The translations under genes were made by a program, and so were the position numbers. Source: a virus. Taken from it: 36,628 bases of DNA. Positions 26,379 through 36,286 of the stretch are shown here, piece by piece; within the stretch, counting starts at the first letter, position 1, and each line of letters starts with the position of its first letter. Location of the stretch: positions 1 through 36,628 of IMG/VR virus record IMGVR_UViG_3300043419_000944. The stretch is one strand, 5' to 3'. The notes under the pieces were generated by a model, which saw nothing but the letters and a program-made list of their open reading frames with translations, did not search any database and was not told the DNA's origin.

Positions 26379-26806
26379 TAGTAGTAGTTTCCTGCATTAT
26401 CTGTTTGAACGCTAGCTGTTACACTAACTACAAAATTATATCCTGTTGGATTTAAACAATACGCATTAAGAATCCATCCACTAAAGTACGATGCACAGTT
26501 TGCTCTTATAACTACATATCCATCTGATGATGTGTAAACTCCGTGTGCACTTAGACCACCGTAAACATTTGATGTCCCGATTTGTATTGTTGAATTAGAA
26601 CCAGCGTAAGCGTAAAAACTCCAAGCGGCTCTAATGGCTTGATTTGCACCATACGCATAACCAACAGCTTCAATAGTGCACATAATATTGTTCATATTGA
26701 TGTTTGTTTTATAGTGAAAATAATTGTTTCCACCATAATACCTATCTCTAAAAAATCCCAACTGAACGCCAGGTGCTGGTCTCGTATTTGCTAAAAAATT
26801 AGCCAT
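26378..26806 (-). CDS. adhesin-like tail-fibre protein, paralogue 3
   Basis: 142 residues. Shared blocks: IEAVGYAYGANQAIRAAW, YGGLSAHGVYTSSDGYVVI, SGWILNAYCLNPTG and ASVQTDNAGNYY. It starts eight bases inside the end of the long tail fibre gene (26799-31637) and shares one base with paralogue 2 (TAATG), so all three are translated from one transcript after the fibre. The strong coupling suggests they assemble with the fibre as tips or alternative tips. Confidence 0.75.
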   Translation of the reverse strand: MANFLANTRPAPGVQLGFFRDRYYGGNNYFHYKTNINMNNIMCTIEAVGYAYGANQAIRAAWSFYAYAGSNSTIQIGTSNVYGGLSAHGVYTSSDGYVVIRANCASYFSGWILNAYCLNPTGYNFVVSVTASVQTDNAGNYY

Positions 26807-29800
26807 TATTCTTTAATTCGTTTATTTCTTTTTTCAAATCTTTTATCGCCTCGATTAACACTGCAGTAATTCTACCATAAGATACGGAATCTACTTTACC
26901 TTCTGAATCGTAAAGTACCACATCAGGTAAAATTTCGGCAATTTCTTCAGCAATAACACCCATTTCTTTAACGTTATTCTCTTTTTTAACGTAAGTAACA
27001 CCTCTTAATTGTAAAACTTTATCCAGACCGTAACTAATGGTTTCAATATCTTTCTTATATCGGATTGATGAGTTTTCTGTTAACGTACCACCAACTGTCA
27101 TATTACCACCGGTCGTTAATGTGCCGTTGAAATAGTGTGCTCCTTGTGAATCTTTAAACTCGGTTCTTGATGTTGTTTTTACAATATTAGAATAATATGA
27201 TGAGTTAGATAAACCTCTATATGAATTAGCACTACCCGTGGTTTTAACTCCGTCCATTCTAACTAAAGTAACCATTGCATCTCCGTCACTCCAACCTCCG
27301 TGTCCTGCGTTGTTAAAACCACCTACGTGGAAAACAGGTCGAGCATTGGCACTTGCATCTCTACCTACCACTAAGAAACCATCATTATTATTATAACAAT
27401 ATAATGCGGTACACCATCCTTCACCACTTAAAACTTCCGAGGTACTTCTAAGTGATAATCCAGTAGCATCTGCCGTAGATGTTGCTGCCACTTGTGATGC
27501 TGATACTCCAGCAAATGTTGGGGAGTTGCCGGTACCGACACTTTGATTAATTGTATATGCAGTAATGTTAGATGCCGTTCCTGTGGTATTTTGGTTCCAC
27601 GTAGGTATATTACCTGAGTGATAAACTGTATTTCCGTTCCAATTAATACCAGTTCTAGTAATTCTAGCAATTTCTTCATAGTTAGTTGAAGATGAAGATT
27701 TAAAAAACCAACCTGTTACATCTCCCGCTTCGGCATATTCAATAAATGTCGTTTGGTGTCCAGCAGTAACAGTTGGTGTTGCTGTAGGTCCCGAAACCGC
27801 GGCTCTAAATGTCATCATATGGTTATTATTATCATAACCAGAAAATATACCATAGGTATTCGCACCACCTGTTCTGGCAATAACCCTTCCACTTGTAACC
27901 GTCAAAGTATTATTAATAGAAATTGCGGTACTTGTGCTCGCACCTCTTCCTGTAACGGTTGCGAGAGTTTCACTACCTGCAGTACCACTAATATTTGTTA
28001 CGCTTGTTAAATAACCAGAGTTGTTTGTAAACTGAGATATGTTCATACTGGTTAGTGAACCTGCGGTTGTTGCGTATGATACAGATTGTGAACCAATATT
28101 ACTTGTTGTAATAGCATCCGTAATTCCGTAACCACTAATCGTTGTTGGTTTAGATGAAACGTTTGCAAATGAAATTCCTGTTATATAACCAGGTCCGTTT
28201 GTTAATTGATTAAGGTTAGTTAAGTTACCCGAATCCCAAATTGTATATCTTGTTGCTTTATTACCACGATATATGACACCTGCAGGATTTAAATATATGT
28301 TGGCGGTAGATTCAAGGGCTAAGTTATCTTCCACATTACCTACACCATCATTAGATGTACCTATTCTAAGTACTGACCTTTCAGTACCGCCAGCATCACT
28401 ATAAGTTGTACTGTTATTATCAAATGTTATATAACCATAATCGTCACCGCCTGTATTAGAACCACCAAAAGATTCTTCCCTACCAAAATATAATGCATTA
28501 CCTGCATCTACACCTAAATCAGAACTCATTCTTAACTTACCCGAAAGAGTAATTTGTGTGGACGAACTTGCCCCACGTGCGGTTACCGACGCCAGTGTAT
28601 CAGTTTCAGTGTATGAACTAATATATCCATTTGGATTGGTTGCGTTATATGGTGTGTATCCTAAACCATTGGTAACTTGTGTACTTGTTAATGTAATTTG
28701 TGAACTACCTGACACTAAACCACTTGGTATACTACTAATACTTAAGAAAGTAATTTGTGAGCTACCAGACACTAATGCCGGTTTATCAGTTATACCATTA
28801 AATGAAATCTGTGCGGAGCCTGATACAACAGAAATTCCGTTAAAGAAACTACCCGAATGTATTGTTGTTCCTGCTAATACCTGTGAACTACCTGACACTA
28901 AACCACTTGGTATACTACTAATACTTAAGAAAGTAATTTGTGACGAACCTGATACCACTCCTGATGGTAATTGTGCAGAACCCGACCAAATGCCAGTTCC
29001 ACTTAATACTTGTGATGACCCTGACACCGTTCCTGCGGGTAAATTAGCAATTACCTGAGCGGAACCACTTATAACTCCTGCGGGTAATTGAGCCGAACCT
29101 GACCAAACACCTGTGGATGTTAGTATTGTCGCTGCGGTTATTGAACCACCTAATGATGTACTTGTACCCGCAATTGATATTGAACTATTTGTAAGTGAAG
29201 CATTAGCGATATTTGTTAACGTGTTAGAACCTCCACTAATTGTTTTGTTTGTTAATGCTTGTGATGCTGTCTTTAACACAACCTCATCTTCGGAACCTAA
29301 CGGACCAGCAACCCACTTATCGTTTGTTGAATCCCAAAGAAATGAACCCGAAGTAAGTGTTGGTGATGTTGCATCTCTTACAACGATACCCGCATTAGTT
29401 GCACCTGTACCATTTAATTGAATAATATTATCACCAATATTAACAGTTGTTGAATCTACTTGAGTAGTGGAACCTTGTACGGTTAAATTACCTTTAACGG
29501 TGACGTTTGCACCACTTAAACCAAATGCCGTATTAAATGATGTGGTAAATGAATTCAACGCAGTAATTGCGGTTGTGTTACTACTTGTGTAAGAATTTAA
29601 ACTACTTGATGCAGTTTCTAACGCGGTTAATCTACCCGAAGCACTGCTTGTGAAACTATTCAAACTACTTGTTGCGGTATGAATCGCATTAATATTAGTA
29701 GTGTTACTACTCGTGTAAGAATTCAACGCATTGATTGAGGTGTTGTTCGAACCTGTGTAAGTATTCAACGCAGCAATTGAACCGGTTACGCCCTCAATAG

Positions 29801-31637
29801 AAGTTAATCTACCACCAGCACTTGAAGAGAATGAATTCAAGCTTGCAGTTGCGGTGTGAATTGAGTTTATATTTGTAGTGTTACTACTTGTATATGAATT
29901 TAAACTACCTGTTGTTGTTTCAAGTGATGTTAGTCTACTATTCTGAGTCGCCTCAATTGAATTATTAGAACTCGTAAATGAATTAAAATCTGTTCTAATT
30001 GAAGAACTTGCTGATTCAAGTGATGTTAGTCTACCTGTAGCACTCGATGTAAAAGTATTTAAACTACTCGTCGCAGTTTGTAATGTTCCTATTACTGTAT
30101 TGTTTGAACCTGTATATGTGTTTAAAATTGATATCGAACCTGTAACTCCTTCAATAGACGTTAGTCTACTGTTCTGAGTTGTCTCAACTGTGTTATTGGA
30201 ACTTGTAAAACTATTAAAGTCACTTCTAATACTACTACTTGCACTTTCTAATGAAGTTATTCTTCCACCCGCACTTGATGTAAAAGCATTCAAACTTCCT
30301 GTTGAAGTTTGAATTGAGTTTATATTTGTAGTGTTACTACTTGTATATGAGTTCAAACTTCCTGTAGATGTTTCCAACGCAACTAATCTATTCGATGCAC
30401 TTGATGTGTAAGAATTTAATGAACTAGTTGATGTGTTAACAGCATTATTATGAGTAATTTGTGAACTAGTAAACGTGTTCAAACTTCCTGTGGATGTTTG
30501 TAACGTACCAATAACCGTGTTGTTACTACCGGTGTAAGTATTAAGTGCACCAATTGAACCGGTTACGCCTTCAATGGATGTTAATCTACCTGTAGCACTT
30601 GATGTAAATGTATTTAATGAACTAGTTGCAGTATGAATTGCATTTATATTTGTAGTGTTACTACTTGTATATGAGTTCAAACTACTTGTTGCAGTTTGTA
30701 AAGTTCCTATTACTGTGTTGTTACTACCTGTATAGGTGTTAAGTAAACTAATAGACCCTGTTACACCTTCTATAGAATTTAATCTACCATTTTGATTAGA
30801 ATCGGTTGTTGCAATTGATGCTGATAAACTATTAATACTCGATGATAAACTTGAACTGAATGTTGAGTATCCTGTTGTTCCTGTAATGTTGACTTGTACT
30901 GACCCACTAACAATACTTGAAGGTATTCCTGTTAATCCACTATAGATAACTTGTGAGGAACCAGAAATTACACCGTCTGAATTTAATTTGTTTTTGATTG
31001 TTGTATTAATCGAACTTGTAAAACCATTCAAACTTGATGTTGAGATTTCTAACGCATCAATTCTTGGATTGATACTTGACGTGTAAGAATTGAATGTGGT
31101 AACCGATAATCTATTTGTTTCAACAAGTTGTCCATTTAATGATAATGAACCCGTAACACTAGCCGAACCTGTAATTTGGTGAGTATCATCTAAAGTGTTA
31201 CCAAATATTGTTGAGCCAGATTCAAAAAGAACTGATGAAGTAACAATTGATGTATGGATTTCTCTTGCAGTAATAATACCCGCAACATTTAAATCGGTAT
31301 TAACCTCTAAACCTCTATCTGGTGATATTGACGCACTAACACTACCACTTGTGATTTTGTTTAGATTTAATCCTGTAACCCCACTAGCGGGGATATTATA
31401 TAAATTAGCACCATCACCAATAAACGAACCCGTAAAAGAACCGGTCGTGTACGATGAGGTAAAAGTATTAAAACTTGAGGTTAGGGTATATCTCGGAGCA
31501 AAAGATGCGGTATCTGCACTTGTGGTGTTACCACTAATGGTTGCATTAATTATTCCAAGTACCCTTAAGTCTCCCTGTATTTCCGCCGAAGAGGATACCG
31601 ACAGGGAACCCGATATGTGTGCGTCAAATATATTCAT
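26799..31637 (-). CDS. long tail fibre with C-terminal peptidase S74 chaperone domain
   Basis: 1612 residues. The N-terminus (FDAHISGSLSVSSSAEI, then VSGSAQV-like strands) is the beta-repeat attachment part. Residues about 160-720 form a long shaft of Ser/Thr/Asn-rich repeats of the type SSLNSYTSSNTTNIN. A second repeat set (SGSSQITFLSISSIPSG) covers about 890-990. A beta-rich body follows, and the last 90 residues (SSIRYKKDI from S1523, GLDKVLQLRGVTY, MGVIAEEIAEILPDVV, YGRITAVLIEAIK) are the intramolecular chaperone of endosialidase/S74 type, which trimerises the fibre and cleaves itself near the serine. This is the host-recognition fibre. Downstream adhesin paralogues are co-transcribed. 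Confidence 0.93.
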   Translation of the reverse strand: MNIFDAHISGSLSVSSSAEIQGDLRVLGIINATISGNTTSADTASFAPRYTLTSSFNTFTSSYTTGSFTGSFIGDGANLYNIPASGVTGLNLNKITSGSVSASISPDRGLEVNTDLNVAGIITAREIHTSIVTSSVLFESGSTIFGNTLDDTHQITGSASVTGSLSLNGQLVETNRLSVTTFNSYTSSINPRIDALEISTSSLNGFTSSINTTIKNKLNSDGVISGSSQVIYSGLTGIPSSIVSGSVQVNITGTTGYSTFSSSLSSSINSLSASIATTDSNQNGRLNSIEGVTGSISLLNTYTGSNNTVIGTLQTATSSLNSYTSSNTTNINAIHTATSSLNTFTSSATGRLTSIEGVTGSIGALNTYTGSNNTVIGTLQTSTGSLNTFTSSQITHNNAVNTSTSSLNSYTSSASNRLVALETSTGSLNSYTSSNTTNINSIQTSTGSLNAFTSSAGGRITSLESASSSIRSDFNSFTSSNNTVETTQNSRLTSIEGVTGSISILNTYTGSNNTVIGTLQTATSSLNTFTSSATGRLTSLESASSSIRTDFNSFTSSNNSIEATQNSRLTSLETTTGSLNSYTSSNTTNINSIHTATASLNSFSSSAGGRLTSIEGVTGSIAALNTYTGSNNTSINALNSYTSSNTTNINAIHTATSSLNSFTSSASGRLTALETASSSLNSYTSSNTTAITALNSFTTSFNTAFGLSGANVTVKGNLTVQGSTTQVDSTTVNIGDNIIQLNGTGATNAGIVVRDATSPTLTSGSFLWDSTNDKWVAGPLGSEDEVVLKTASQALTNKTISGGSNTLTNIANASLTNSSISIAGTSTSLGGSITAATILTSTGVWSGSAQLPAGVISGSAQVIANLPAGTVSGSSQVLSGTGIWSGSAQLPSGVVSGSSQITFLSISSIPSGLVSGSSQVLAGTTIHSGSFFNGISVVSGSAQISFNGITDKPALVSGSSQITFLSISSIPSGLVSGSSQITLTSTQVTNGLGYTPYNATNPNGYISSYTETDTLASVTARGASSSTQITLSGKLRMSSDLGVDAGNALYFGREESFGGSNTGGDDYGYITFDNNSTTYSDAGGTERSVLRIGTSNDGVGNVEDNLALESTANIYLNPAGVIYRGNKATRYTIWDSGNLTNLNQLTNGPGYITGISFANVSSKPTTISGYGITDAITTSNIGSQSVSYATTAGSLTSMNISQFTNNSGYLTSVTNISGTAGSETLATVTGRGASTSTAISINNTLTVTSGRVIARTGGANTYGIFSGYDNNNHMMTFRAAVSGPTATPTVTAGHQTTFIEYAEAGDVTGWFFKSSSSTNYEEIARITRTGINWNGNTVYHSGNIPTWNQNTTGTASNITAYTINQSVGTGNSPTFAGVSASQVAATSTADATGLSLRSTSEVLSGEGWCTALYCYNNNDGFLVVGRDASANARPVFHVGGFNNAGHGGWSDGDAMVTLVRMDGVKTTGSANSYRGLSNSSYYSNIVKTTSRTEFKDSQGAHYFNGTLTTGGNMTVGGTLTENSSIRYKKDIETISYGLDKVLQLRGVTYVKKENNVKEMGVIAEEIAEILPDVVLYDSEGKVDSVSYGRITAVLIEAIKDLKKEINELKNNG
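28699..28943. repeat. two identical 62-bp direct repeats in the tail fibre gene
   Basis: 28699-28760 and 28882-28943 are identical over 62 bases, 183 bases apart start to start. They encode the same stretch, part of the SGSSQITFLSISSIPSGLVSG repeat of the fibre. Identity at DNA level, not only protein level, indicates recent duplication or gene conversion and makes in-frame deletion by recombination likely. Confidence 0.85.
29545..30800. repeat. tandem coding repeats of the tail-fibre shaft
   Basis: A run of degenerate coding units of about 45-90 bases giving SSLN[ST][YF]TSS followed by a variable short linker. Subsets are near-identical at DNA level: TTACTACTTGTATATGA-like segments occur near 29880, 30338 and 30660. 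Also repeated: the GVTGS-based unit SIEGVTGSI (four copies or more). The units build a rod-like trimeric shaft. No spacer-like unique sequences, so not a CRISPR array. Confidence 0.8.
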
Positions 31638-31691: not shown

Positions 31692-32465
31692 TTATTTAGG
31701 TAAATAATCGGAAAAATTGGATTTTACAAACTGAAGTAGTTTTTTGGAGTATTCTTCGTTGTGTTTTGGGGTTGCGTGTTTACCATCAATGGAGAATTCA
31801 CGGAAATCTCCGTAGTCACCATCGAACCGATATTTGTCAGAATATTCGTTATCCATCAGGAAAGAACCGTTCCATATATATGGGATGCTCCTATTCTCCA
31901 AATAATTGGTGATTAGAAGATGGTTTTTGTACCAATTGATTAAATCGTTCTCGTCGTGGGTAATTCTTGCAATTGATTTGTACTCTTCCTTCCCTTCACT
32001 ATCTTCCTTAAAATAACCCCAAGGAGTCATATGAAATGGTTCCAACTCTCCATTATATCGGTAATATTCTTTACGTGATGGATAAGTGTACATTAAGTTA
32101 ACCAAATTAGGTCTTATCTTTTGAGTTAAGGTGATAACACATCTAGCAATGTAATCGTTACTACGTCCACCAAACCCCAAATTTAAATCTACCCCGTTCT
32201 GTATCTGTCTTGAGAAATAATAAGGCCAAGTTTGATTATCACTAACCCCAACACCTTCAGTGTGGGAACAACCAACTGACATTATTCTAAACCCATCCTT
32301 ATATAATGAATCTCCCCTGAACCCCATTTCATTGTATGTGTAGTTATTCGTTTCGGAAATATCGGAACCTGATGTGTTGAGTGTTTTATTTCTACGTTCA
32401 TCCAATCTCCAAGAATGGTTACCCACCTCAAACCCCGAACTTGTCCAAAACTTCATTGATTTCAT
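31692..32465 (-). CDS. SGNH-like hydrolase with GCSHTEG block I
   Basis: 257 residues. A short N-terminal cap (TYNEMGFRGDSLYKDGFR) leads into block I GCSHTEGVGVS (65-75, Ser at 67), block II GFGGRSNDYI, block III MYTYPSR and the terminal DGKHATPKHN with H230 as the catalytic His. The cap plus GCSHT layout is common in SGNH proteins of marine viruses and lipopolysaccharide-modifying clusters. It probably esterifies or de-esterifies a sugar. ATGA overlap (32462-32465) with the glycosyltransferase-like gene upstream; last of the coupled set. Confidence 0.82.
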   Translation of the reverse strand: MKSMKFWTSSGFEVGNHSWRLDERRNKTLNTSGSDISETNNYTYNEMGFRGDSLYKDGFRIMSVGCSHTEGVGVSDNQTWPYYFSRQIQNGVDLNLGFGGRSNDYIARCVITLTQKIRPNLVNLMYTYPSRKEYYRYNGELEPFHMTPWGYFKEDSEGKEEYKSIARITHDENDLINWYKNHLLITNYLENRSIPYIWNGSFLMDNEYSDKYRFDGDYGDFREFSIDGKHATPKHNEEYSKKLLQFVKSNFSDYLPK

Positions 32466-33160
32466 ATTAAATTCTTGTTTCTATTGAAATGACTAACTTT
32501 ATTTTTATCCGCAATGTGACAAACTCCGTTCATCGATAACTCACCAAACGATGGGTTATGTTTATATAGGTAATTTATATCATCAAAGTATAAATTTAAA
32601 TATTGTTGGTTTAAGGTTATTGGTGGTATTCCGTGATAACGTTTATTAAAAAAATCGTAGTTTTCTTCAATAATTTCCAAAACTTCGGAATATGCTTTAT
32701 TCACATTTCTAAAGTTACGAGACGCAATTATTGAGGTGTTATTTAATTCGGTATAATCTAACGAGGTATTTGAATATAGTTTATGTAGTTCAGTAAAGTC
32801 CTCGATTTGTGAACTCGATAGAGGATGTTTGTAACATAAATTTAGTTTATCCTTTTTAATGATATCTAATAATTTTTTAATGTCCCCAACTACTAAATCA
32901 TTATCCAAATGTATAAAAGGGAACTGAATTTCAGATAGAACTTTTAATTTAGGATATGACCATATTGTTGGTTTTCGGTATCTATCCGGTAAGGACAATT
33001 CAACCCAATCATATATTAAGTTTAAATTTTTAAAATAATCAATATCGGAATATATTATAGGAACTTCACCTTGTATATTCAAACTTTGAATTGAATACTT
33101 TAAGTAAATTTCAGTAATCTCTTTAAGTCTGGTTGGTAGATATGTGAATACTATTCTCAT
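32462..33160 (-). CDS. GT-A-like putative glycosyltransferase
   Basis: 232 residues. FPFIHLDNDLVVGDI (about 79-93) is a DxD-like metal site after the segment WSYPKLKVLSE, a layout I associate with DUF6734-type and related glycosyltransferases. IVFTYLPTRLKE at the N-terminus fits the donor-binding strand. No membrane segment. The C-terminus is unremarkable. The donor is unknown. It overlaps both neighbours (ATGA at 32462; TAATG at 33160), so the set is translated together. Confidence 0.65.
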   Translation of the reverse strand: MRIVFTYLPTRLKEITEIYLKYSIQSLNIQGEVPIIYSDIDYFKNLNLIYDWVELSLPDRYRKPTIWSYPKLKVLSEIQFPFIHLDNDLVVGDIKKLLDIIKKDKLNLCYKHPLSSSQIEDFTELHKLYSNTSLDYTELNNTSIIASRNFRNVNKAYSEVLEIIEENYDFFNKRYHGIPPITLNQQYLNLYFDDINYLYKHNPSFGELSMNGVCHIADKNKVSHFNRNKNLI

Positions 33161-34404
33161 TATAGTAATGGTCGTTTTGGTATGGGTTCGTTAGTTATAA
33201 CTCCATTAACTATCATATCCAACATTGAATTTTCTTTATGTAATCTATCAATAAAAATGTCGTGACATTCTTTAATCCAATCCTTACATAGTTGATAATT
33301 GTTATCAAAATCACTAATGAATGTTCTCACAAAATCCGCAAATAGTTTAGCGTTCCCTTGGTATTGTTTGGACTCATCATAAAAAGGATGTTTTCTAATT
33401 CCAATCAAATCCATAATACAATCGTATGGATATGAGTGAGTGGAAACAAAAGGAACGTTAGCTAAAATTAAACCCAACGACTTTTCACTTAGATATTGAC
33501 TATGGTAGTTGGCGGAATTGTGGGCCCAAGATTCATCACATATTTGAATTTTAGACATTGGTAAAATCCTCAAGAAAAAGTCAAGACCTACAGTTATGTT
33601 TGTTAATATCCTTAAGTTCTGAAAATCAATTTCAGAATCGTAATCATTTAAGTAAGCACCTTCAATTTTTCTATACTTTGGTTGTACTGAATCCTTTTCA
33701 ATTACATTTGTTTGGGAAACGAAGATGTCTTCGATTTGTGTTAACTCCTCGGCAATTTTAACCCTAAGTGGTTTATGTGCTCTAACCGAATAGCCCATTT
33801 TATATTTTGGAACTATAACATCACTAACATTTTTATAATCATAGAACCACCTAATACTAATCATTTCATTCCATTGAAAAATAATATTAGTGAATGGATT
33901 GTACAAGTTTGGGTGTTTACTTAATACTATTTTGTTGGTGAAAATATTATCAGTTAATATAAAATGATTCGATAACCTGAGAATTTGATTTTCAATTTCT
34001 TCAATTTGTATTGTTCCGTCTGTCTTTACTTTTGTATTGTCGTTCTTAATGAATATCTTTTCAGTTCTAAACAAACAAACCACCCAATTCTTTTTATCTT
34101 GAATGAGGTCAGCCATTCTTTCAATCATAGCAAAAGAATCCGAACCTCTATGTTCAGTGTTTTCAAAATTAGTATCTTGACCTCTTTGTCTAAGTGCACC
34201 AAAGAAATCAATTATATGAATCCCCTCATCATCATTTATTTCAGGATTAAATGACACTTCAAAGTTCTTTCCTCCGTACTCAAATGTGACATCCCTAATT
34301 GCTCCATTAGTGTTATCTACTTCAACCATTTCTTTGTTCTCAACATTATGAAAGAACTTTTGAAATAACATATCAGTATAATAATGATGAACGAATATTT
34401 TCAT
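33160..34404 (-). CDS. putative glycosyltransferase-like protein
   Basis: 414 residues, no clear domain at the N-terminus. The distal segment YLSEKSLGLILANVPFVSTH (about 307-326), then IGIRKHPFYDES, recalls the EK-x-x-x-x-I-x-x-x-x-PF-I motif of fucosyltransferase or exostosin-like families in which an ESK/SEK block binds the nucleotide sugar. This is a motif-level inference, so it could be a capsular or LPS-type transferase or something else. It shares one base with 32462-33160 and is three bases from the sulfotransferase stop. Confidence 0.55.
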   Translation of the reverse strand: MKIFVHHYYTDMLFQKFFHNVENKEMVEVDNTNGAIRDVTFEYGGKNFEVSFNPEINDDEGIHIIDFFGALRQRGQDTNFENTEHRGSDSFAMIERMADLIQDKKNWVVCLFRTEKIFIKNDNTKVKTDGTIQIEEIENQILRLSNHFILTDNIFTNKIVLSKHPNLYNPFTNIIFQWNEMISIRWFYDYKNVSDVIVPKYKMGYSVRAHKPLRVKIAEELTQIEDIFVSQTNVIEKDSVQPKYRKIEGAYLNDYDSEIDFQNLRILTNITVGLDFFLRILPMSKIQICDESWAHNSANYHSQYLSEKSLGLILANVPFVSTHSYPYDCIMDLIGIRKHPFYDESKQYQGNAKLFADFVRTFISDFDNNYQLCKDWIKECHDIFIDRLHKENSMLDMIVNGVITNEPIPKRPLL

Positions 34405-34407
34405 ATG

Positions 34408-34905
34408 TTAAATTAATTTCTTAATTGTTTTATCTCTATTACCTTTTCTTAATCTACCTTCATTATTGAAATCGAAAATATCCTCATAGTAAGTTATTGG
34501 AACATTAAGTTTGACAGATAATTCACCAATTTCCTTATTCCATTTTATAATGTCGTTATAACATAATTCGTATATTTCTGAAGGAACCTCTTCATAAACA
34601 TATGGAGTATTTGAATTATAGTTTTTCTTTTTTGAAAAGTATGTTTGATATGCGTGTGATTCTGTACACTCTATTACATTTTTTCTTGTTAGTAATATAA
34701 CCTCATCAAACTCTTTAGACAATTCTAAATTACTATGATGATGACATATTATTGTTTTAACCACAACATTTTTTTCTCCATTATAATTAACTCTACCAGT
34801 ACCATCAAATGGTTCAAACAAAGGTTTTAAATTCTTCTCTTTTGCTATTTTGTGTAACAATGAAGTAGAACCCGTTCTTGGTAAGGAGATGATTAATACA
34901 CTCAT
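34408..34905 (-). CDS. sulfotransferase-family protein
   Basis: 165 residues, short for the family (usually over 250). The PAPS-binding loop is SLPRTGSTSLL (7-17). The 3'-phosphate motif appears as VILLTRKNVIECTESH (69-84), with R74 and S83 at the expected spacing. No membrane or signal segment. It would transfer a sulfuryl group from PAPS onto a sugar or a tyrosine-like acceptor. The small size may mean a shortened acceptor domain; the core looks intact. ATGA overlap with the oxygenase gene upstream (34902-34905). Confidence 0.82.
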   Translation of the reverse strand: MSVLIISLPRTGSTSLLHKIAKEKNLKPLFEPFDGTGRVNYNGEKNVVVKTIICHHHSNLELSKEFDEVILLTRKNVIECTESHAYQTYFSKKKNYNSNTPYVYEEVPSEIYELCYNDIIKWNKEIGELSVKLNVPITYYEDIFDFNNEGRLRKGNRDKTIKKLI

Positions 34906-35468
34906 AGTAATGTTTTATTACTTTTAACCCTCGGATAATCAAAATCTGTTTCGGTCATCCATACATTCAATGCATATCTTATTCCCTTAGTTACCGGCAG
35001 AACTCCGTGATATGTTTCAGAACCGTTGAATGAAATACTATCACCCAATTTTAAATCACATAAAGTTAAACCACCCAAAGTCTCAAAGTCATATGGTGGA
35101 TTTTCATCTTGGGTTAACACAAATTGACCTCCTTCAAAATCGTCAGAAAGAACAATAACTGTAGTTAATTCACTCGACTTATCTTTATGTAGATTAAGAT
35201 ACCTACCATCATAATACGATGTTAAACTAATGTTGAAATTTTTTAAATTAAATGTTGAGTAATCAAACCATAATTTAAACTCTCCATTTTTGTAATTGGT
35301 TGTTAATAAATTAATAATTCTTTCTTTAAAATTGGAATCGTACATTCTTCTACAATCCCATTTTTCAGTTGGTTTGTATGAAAATGGTTCACCGAACTCA
35401 AGACAAAAATCAATTATATCTTTAGCGGTTTCTCTATCACAAAAATTATTGTTTATGTTATAATTCAT
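34902..35468 (-). CDS. 2-oxoglutarate/Fe(II)-dependent oxygenase
   Basis: 188 residues. The double-stranded beta-helix core shows LHKDKSSELTTVIVLSDD (93-110) with H94 and D96 as iron ligands, GGQFVL, GDSISFNGSETYHGVLPVT with H154 as the third ligand, and GIRYALNVWM with R164 binding 2-oxoglutarate. This is the prolyl-4-hydroxylase-like (P4Hc) type. It hydroxylates a protein side chain, sugar or lipid; the target cannot be read. ATGA overlap at 35465-35468 with the SGNH gene upstream. Confidence 0.9.
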   Translation of the reverse strand: MNYNINNNFCDRETAKDIIDFCLEFGEPFSYKPTEKWDCRRMYDSNFKERIINLLTTNYKNGEFKLWFDYSTFNLKNFNISLTSYYDGRYLNLHKDKSSELTTVIVLSDDFEGGQFVLTQDENPPYDFETLGGLTLCDLKLGDSISFNGSETYHGVLPVTKGIRYALNVWMTETDFDYPRVKSNKTLL

Positions 35469-36286
35469 AGTAGATATGAATTTTTCTTTTTATTATTAGT
35501 TAGTAAATCACCTTCGTTTATGAATTTATATAATTCTTCCGCAATTAATTTATAACCATTGTTACTTGGGTGTTTACCTGCGGTAGTATCTACCCATCGA
35601 TTATTATCCTCCCAAACATCTTTTCTATTTGTATCGATTAATAAATTAGCCATTGTTTTATCTATATAACCCCAATATCTTTCACCCTCAATCAAATGAG
35701 TTTTATCAACCAGAACATCAATGTTTTTATTAATCATAGTGTCAAATGCGTCACAAAAAACATATCTAATTCCCAATTCCTTAAACATAAATTGTAAATG
35801 TAGTATGTAGTTTTGATTAACTATGTCATAGTATGCGTCATTAAATAAATTACTAATGTAGTAATCTCTAAAATTTTTTTCCGCCCTATTATAGTTTACA
35901 TTATCTCCACTAACACCATCGAAAATATATTTGAAAAGATGTTGCTTACTCTTATATCTTTGACCCCAAATATGAAAACTATTCTCATTTGGAAAAAATG
36001 GTAATTGGTCTCTTAAGGATGAGGACCACATAATAACAACAAAATCATCTTGAGTGATGATTTCATTTTTTAATTGATTGCAAACTGTATTGAATATTGA
36101 GTTGTTCGAGAACCCACCAACTCCGTTATTTTTAACTTCACATTCAAGTAGTTCCGATAAGTGTTTCGGCCAACAATATTTTTGTCTTATGTTAGTTCTT
36201 TCCTCAGGAATTTCTGTTGTTAATTCCTCATCAACATTACCCCCAACACCCTCAGTCCAACTATCTCCATATGTGAATAACTTCAT
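35465..36286 (-). CDS. SGNH/GDSL-type hydrolase
   Basis: 273 residues. Block I is TYGDSWTEGVGG (Ser at 9), block II NNGVGGFSNNSIF, block III the MWSSSLRDQL segment after DFVVI, and the terminal AGKHPSNNGYKLIAEEL carries H239. Features close to the protein at 14195-14839. No signal peptide, so it acts in the cytosol, perhaps on a glycan intermediate. It is the first enzyme in the coupled leftward set 36286 to 31692; 11 bases separate it from the 47-residue gene upstream. Confidence 0.85.
   Translation of the reverse strand: MKLFTYGDSWTEGVGGNVDEELTTEIPEERTNIRQKYCWPKHLSELLECEVKNNGVGGFSNNSIFNTVCNQLKNEIITQDDFVVIMWSSSLRDQLPFFPNENSFHIWGQRYKSKQHLFKYIFDGVSGDNVNYNRAEKNFRDYYISNLFNDAYYDIVNQNYILHLQFMFKELGIRYVFCDAFDTMINKNIDVLVDKTHLIEGERYWGYIDKTMANLLIDTNRKDVWEDNNRWVDTTAGKHPSNNGYKLIAEELYKFINEGDLLTNNKKKNSYLL

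Follow-up and report, generated by a model that had tools for sequence, protein, structure and literature searches.

A common C-terminal tail on unrelated modifying enzymes of large uncultivated phages may dock them on a co-encoded partner protein

Five of the six proteins encoded on the minus strand at positions 31692-36286 of a viral DNA stretch of 36,628 nt (IMG/VR record IMGVR_UViG_3300043419_000944; hereafter the window) end in a common short tail (...NSYLL, ...NKTLL, ...IKKLI, ...KRPLL and ...NKNLI). The window is the exact reverse complement of G001:100696-137323, part of a 159,820-bp viral contig on which the operon can be followed further. It is a cassette of 13 genes that runs on upstream beyond the window, and the six make up its downstream half. 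The upstream half encodes two 2-oxoglutarate (2OG) oxygenases, a tryptophan halogenase (PF04820, 9.8e-87), a further 2OG-like enzyme, a second sulfotransferase-family protein, a small Cys-rich protein and a protein of 496 amino acids (aa) that we call HINT496; the tails of the six enzyme genes ahead of HINT496 are KQNLI, VKLL, EKSLI, RKSLI, TKTLI and KSTLI. Certain large phages, all uncultivated, have this tail on unrelated enzyme classes; in them it is conserved at the level of the protein and co-occurs with HINT496. We put at roughly one in two the probability that it is a docking tag recruiting a protein-modification assembly line, most likely to HINT496 and its C-terminal peptide.

The tail can be written as K-x-[LI]-[LI], and the pattern used to search for it is permissive, with a background of about 6-17%. 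On the G001 contig the tail ends 11/13 cassette genes and 11/177 others (p=2e-10, to be read with the caution that p-values are overstated because the loci are phylogenetically related), and the family-balanced logo is K(.62)-[SKNT]-[LI,F]-[I,L]. Related phages with a different gene content have the same tail pattern. For an independent test, loci were collected by similarity to HINT496 alone, which has more than 200 homologues in the scan and led to 80 loci. Of these, 70 were newly fetched and have the gene called; in them, about 90% of the same-strand neighbours at positions -4 to +2 of HINT496 are tagged, and the frequency is at background beyond about seven genes. Counted as unique genes, 416/485 at four positions or fewer from HINT496 are tagged and 56/336 at eight or more. 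Tagged families with at least three members number 26, and the tagged classes comprise 2OG oxygenases, sulfotransferases, flavin adenine dinucleotide (FAD) halogenases, radical S-adenosylmethionine (SAM) proteins (NF033640, 8e-17), SET proteins, methyltransferase-like proteins, SGNH proteins and small Cys-rich proteins; an Asp/Asn hydroxylase is among the single-member examples. Outside the cassette, these phages also tag an epimerase-2OG fusion and radical SAM proteins, and the tag therefore tracks enzyme class more than position. The fusion, a 590-aa protein at G001:82549-84321 (L030:6549-8321, minus strand), joins an NAD-dependent epimerase to a C-terminal 2OG oxygenase and ends in KKSLI. 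Two paralogous proteins of 423 and 427 aa (G001:87816-89087 and 77686-78969), of a family otherwise met tagged and in cassettes, differ in that one is untagged and one tagged (KQNLI).

Conceivably, the tail arises from constraints on the DNA rather than on the protein, that is, from translational coupling or from the start-site context at ATGA and TAATG overlaps. A preliminary description of the window had noted such coupling among the six genes and suggested from their order that they form one pathway. The open reading frames and their junctions are reproduced: ATGA at 35465-35468, 34902-34905 and 32462-32465, TAATG with a 1-nt overlap at 33160, and a 3-nt gap at 34405-34407. Yet 68 other junctions in the G001 contig are equally tight, and coupling was dismissed as a sign of function for this reason. 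The idea of one pathway thus holds in spirit, but for a unit larger than six genes and on the evidence of the shared tail rather than of the coupling. Many tagged genes do overlap the next start, and the codons TTA, CTA and ATA fit ATGA overlaps. However, tightly coupled G001 genes match the tail in 10/10 cases in the cassette and in only 10/68 elsewhere. Moreover, when all members are counted of families chosen as mostly tagged, the tail is retained in 61/70 genes whose distance to the following gene exceeds 40 nt and, at operon ends, in 18/20 genes ahead of an opposite-strand gene, and the last codon of tailed genes in these two settings is commonly ATT, not ATA. Since the tail is present where no gene closely follows, translational coupling does not explain it. 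In homologues averaging 54% identity, the last two tail positions are 95-97% similar against about 35-50% in the preceding linker, a comparison of tail-bearing members only that is biased upward at these two positions. A DNA-level origin is largely refuted by the gap and strand classes and is hardly credible.

Halogenase homologues, found at 78 viral loci, separate according to the presence of HINT496. The tail ends 16/16 of those with HINT496 nearby and 3/62 of those without, and the three exceptions lie on contigs of 4-6 kb, where HINT496 may lie beyond the contig's edge. Among homologues of equal divergence (42-45% identity), those at L168, L170, L171, L174, L175 and L177 have both the tail and HINT496, and those at L172 and L173 have neither. 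The tail was not found in the oxygenase/halogenase clusters of cultured cyanophages and pelagiphages; as these clusters and the halogenases without HINT496 are mostly untailed, we rejected the tail as a general trait of phage oxygenase/halogenase genes. The clusters of the T4-like phages P-SSM2, S-H38 and HTVC008M contain the same families as the cassette (phrog_61 and phrog_2928), but unlike in the cassette phages no HINT496 was found in them and there is no common C-terminal tail. HINT496 had no match in cultured phages at large and none among 84,980 bacterial and archaeal species genomes. The halogenases also bear on whether the tail might be a degron, a hydrophobic C-terminus for a host ClpXP- or Tsp/Prc-like protease that limits enzymes harmful to the host or the virion. 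Basic-hydrophobic C-termini can act as protease signals, and the tail sits behind a disordered linker in the model of the short sulfotransferase described below. Such a signal would nevertheless leave unexplained why halogenases are tagged only near HINT496 and why only one functional class is tagged, and we regard a degron as very unlikely.

HINT496 is the invariant untagged protein of the cassette and is found in every full cassette locus. The 25 fully flanked loci all contain HINT496, an oxygenase and members of both sulfotransferase families, and each has 8-12 tagged genes; 80% of full loci have a halogenase. HINT496 had no significant family match in profile libraries, and searches of PDB profiles, including one with a permuted N-domain, gave nothing convincing. 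Its N-terminal ~285 residues contain ATP-grasp-like motifs in permuted order (E21-x-N23, then K173, Q210 and R228), of which E21-x-N23, K173 and R228 are invariant. The RimK match of the L002 member goes from 0.24 unpermuted to 0.045 permuted, and that of permuted L010, one member only, is 0.0052; this is suggestive only, of a putative circularly permuted ATP-grasp. Residues ~286-467, with no significant Pfam match, can be read as a putative Hint domain without the first cysteine: HN is invariant, Cys1 is absent and the block B His is present in only some members. A relative at L040:620-2494 has an extra canonical Hint/intein domain (PF14890, 2.9e-10) at its C-terminus, ending HNRGIPKL. The stretch behind HN is 25-33 residues long, and most of its 63 variants fit [STGAP]CWC[PS][WY]..CG..C.[ST]..C..C. 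In another clade (L065:1927-3858, L066, L070 and L072), HINT496 ends in a longer Cys-rich part and an S74-like intramolecular chaperone; such an ending is a hint that the protein is attached to the virion. Directly after HINT496, 81/91 of its loci encode in the same place a homologue, 38-50 aa long and ending IKxKHL[SGE], of the 47-aa protein of the window. Its co-occurrence is almost as strict as that of HINT496, which makes this small protein a possible alternative partner of the tail; it could also be a second substrate.

The scenario that we favour is one in which each modifying enzyme, whatever its fold, ends in a linker, probably disordered, and the C-terminal tag K-[STKN]-L-I-COOH (L, I or F at -2 and I or L at -1). 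The tag would dock the enzyme on a common partner from the same operon, most likely HINT496 or else the adjoining 47-aa protein, and the sulfotransferases would be supplied by phage genes for 3'-phosphoadenosine-5'-phosphosulfate (PAPS). The 2OG oxygenases, sulfotransferases and tryptophan halogenase, joined in relatives by radical SAM, SET, methyltransferase and Asp/Asn hydroxylase enzymes, would act on a protein or peptide substrate. The likeliest one is the Cys/Trp/Tyr-rich segment at the C-terminus of HINT496, which the Hint-like domain may release. More tentatively, one docking tag on more than 20 enzyme families may build a modular hypermodification machine on an ATP-grasp/Hint-like scaffold, a previously undescribed phage system in which a Cys/aromatic-rich peptide would be sulfated, hydroxylated, halogenated and cross-linked; in such a system, enzymes could be exchanged by gaining the tag.

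Several points weigh against docking on HINT496. The tail is short, and the permissive pattern with its 6-17% background and the relatedness of the loci, which overstates the p-values, tell in the same direction. The ATP-grasp and Hint-like assignments come from motif reading and weak matches, the Trp content of this Cys-rich C-terminal segment shows no correlation with the presence of the halogenase, and the 47-aa protein is nearly as constant a companion of the tagged genes. The AlphaFold2 (AF2) model of HINT496 is unusable (mean predicted local distance difference test, pLDDT, 45), and the binding of the tail to HINT496 is one that we infer. Perhaps the tail is instead a targeting or packaging signal that sends the enzymes to the virion, the procapsid or a phage-made compartment, by a logic like that of peroxisomal targeting signal 1 (PTS1) or encapsulin cargo peptides. 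A short C-terminal tag on unrelated enzymes is the typical look of such signals, and a fibre gene adjoins the cassette. Yet the tagged proteins are selectively modifying enzymes, while the nearby PAPS-type genes, DUF2061 and fibres are untagged, and no candidate compartment or shell protein was identified, which makes a targeting signal unlikely. The untagged genes ahead of the cassette, at G001:94207-95205 (L030:18207-19202), encode an adenosine 5'-phosphosulfate (APS) kinase-like protein (PF01583, 1.9e-16), a nucleotidyltransferase/cytidylyltransferase-like protein and a DUF2061 membrane protein, and they are probably the phage's PAPS supply.

The 165-aa protein encoded at 34408-34905 had been called a sulfotransferase, with R74 and S83 as its PAPS-binding residues. 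Both residues are invariant across 12 divergent homologues (~25-48% identity), as are R10 and G12 of the P-loop. The protein itself had no match in Pfam, PHROGs or NCBIfam; some homologues match Sulfotransfer_3 (1.8e-4), Sulfotransfer_1 (9e-4) and, weakly and in 4/12 members, Stf0. A PDB profile search with the 165-aa protein gave NodH and CurM as top matches, both weak (0.012-0.018). Its AF2 model (pLDDT 81) is good apart from the last 21 residues, which are predicted to be disordered and carry the tail; Foldseek on this model ranks P-loop kinases first by E-value, and the highest TM-score listed is that of Stf0 (0.58). The invariant P-loop, R74 and S83, together with the profile matches of some homologues, bear out the earlier call and support a place in the sulfotransferase superfamily. 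With Stf0, NodH and tyrosylprotein sulfotransferases the protein has in common the P-loop and the R and S of the 3'-phosphate site. It differs from them in its length and its ending, as it is shortened C-terminally, without the C-terminal region of longer family members, and closes with the tag. It had no match among cultured phages. An overlapping 2OG oxygenase directly precedes it in 22/22 loci with the upstream gene visible, whereas more than half of the loci have other genes 3' of it; of the co-occurrence expected for the six genes, the oxygenase-sulfotransferase pair thus holds and the six-gene order does not.

The glycosyltransferases and candidate glycan acceptors named in the preliminary description imply a glycan-decoration operon that builds and sulfates a polysaccharide, in which case the tail would be incidental. 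SGNH and glycosyltransferase (GT)-like members, the PAPS supply and the glycan-type genes that the contig has upstream are in keeping with this. However, those upstream genes are mostly untagged, no more than about a third of full loci have GT-like genes, and the invariant tagged set consists of 2OG oxygenase, sulfotransferase and, in 80%, halogenase, with radical SAM and SET proteins in relatives. The co-tagged 2OG oxygenases, halogenase, radical SAM, SET and Asp/Asn hydroxylase enzymes point to a peptide or protein substrate rather than to a glycan acceptor, and we consider it quite unlikely that the cassette is a glycan operon. The calls on the individual genes fared unevenly (Table 1). The oxygenase stands, on its PF13640 match and on the metal/2OG motif H-x-D, H, R (here HKD94, H154 and R164), which is conserved in 11 sequences. 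The two proposed SGNH enzymes have SGNH-like motifs, but matches of the 273-aa protein to DUF6071 (1.2e-5) and Lipase_GDSL_2 (0.0057) are below cutoffs, and the second, about half of whose homologues are tagged, had no family match in the libraries scanned. Of the two proposed glycosyltransferases, the 414-aa protein is not upheld as such, with no match in Pfam, PHROGs, NCBIfam or a PDB profile search. The 232-aa protein is a GT-A-like candidate by its LDNDL motif, invariant in the family, but its match to DUF6734 (3.3e-4) is below cutoff and a PDB profile search gave nothing convincing. The fibre gene that bounds the cassette is repeat-rich, and its length and repeats differ strongly among the close relatives L003, L005 and L009.

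Table 1. Coordinates of the tag codons, cassette genes and bounding fibre gene in the window.
Feature	Position	Strand	Remarks
Fibre-like protein, 1612 aa, with C-terminal S74 intramolecular chaperone	26799..31637	-	PF13884 1.7e-12; bounds cassette; untagged
SGNH-like protein 2, 257 aa	31692..32465	-	GCSH at 65, DGKH at 227; untagged here (...DYLPK)
GT-A-like candidate, 232 aa	32462..33160	-	LDNDL at 85; tail ...NRNKNLI; 12/14 family members tagged
Tag codons KNLI, 232-aa protein	32465..32476	-	
414-aa protein (first proposed glycosyltransferase)	33160..34404	-	tail ...IPKRPLL; 22/22 family members tagged
Tag codons RPLL, 414-aa protein	33163..33174	-	
Short sulfotransferase, 165 aa	34408..34905	-	P-loop PRTGS 9-13, R74, S83, YYED 139; tail ...IKKLI
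Tag codons KKLI, sulfotransferase	34411..34422	-	
2OG-Fe(II) oxygenase, 188 aa	34902..35468	-	HKD at 94, YHG at 153, IRYA at 163; tail ...KSNKTLL; PF13640 1.3e-8; phrog_61 9.5e-13
Tag codons KTLL, oxygenase	34905..34916	-	
SGNH/GDSL-like hydrolase, 273 aa	35465..36286	-	GDSW at 7, HPS (KHPS) at 239; tail ...KKKNSYLL
Tag codons SYLL, SGNH protein	35468..35479	-	
Conserved small basic protein, 47 aa	36298..36441	-	MAQKERIERPAQTIKAIVAPISSELKTKVATAFQAVVTAIKVKHLGE; directly after HINT496
HINT496 (496 aa), C-terminal 57 residues	36454..36628	-	full gene G001:99380-100870; ...VMHN then TCWCPWNYCGHWCNSWYCPSCSNTPLPKL

That phages encode 2OG oxygenases, tryptophan halogenases and sulfotransferases has long been known, but not what these enzymes act on. 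A tag that marks the whole set, together with an invariant co-encoded partner, makes the question of the substrate directly testable. If the tail is indeed a docking signal, it would provide a simple rule for membership in the assembly line, a route to the substrate and, for the engineering of enzymes, a portable peptide with which to recruit them. To our knowledge, no such C-terminal tag is known in phages, and searches of the open-access literature in PubMed Central on phage sulfotransferases, halogenase clusters, common C-terminal tags, docking motifs and phage ribosomally synthesized and post-translationally modified peptides (RiPPs) found no description of such a system. The enzyme classes are familiar ones; the common tail on the enzymes and the HINT496 partner family are, to the extent of these searches, new.

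The cassettes resemble RiPP clusters, such as those of proteusins or those with RiPP halogenases and radical SAM/SPASM maturases, in their classes of modifying enzymes and in a protein with a short, variable Cys/Trp-rich end. Judged as RiPP loci, they offer 63 C-terminal variants of HINT496 and radical SAM, halogenase, 2OG and SET enzymes. In known RiPP pathways the enzymes generally recognise a leader that is part of the precursor, whereas here the common element is on the C-termini of the enzymes themselves, the putative precursor is ~500 aa long and a RiPP recognition element (RRE) domain was not found. In that a short C-terminal sequence would send unrelated enzymes to one destination or partner, the tail is comparable in logic to PTS1, to encapsulin cargo peptides and to the docking peptides of non-ribosomal peptide synthetases and polyketide synthases (NRPS/PKS), from all of which the phage cassette differs in sequence, setting and partner.

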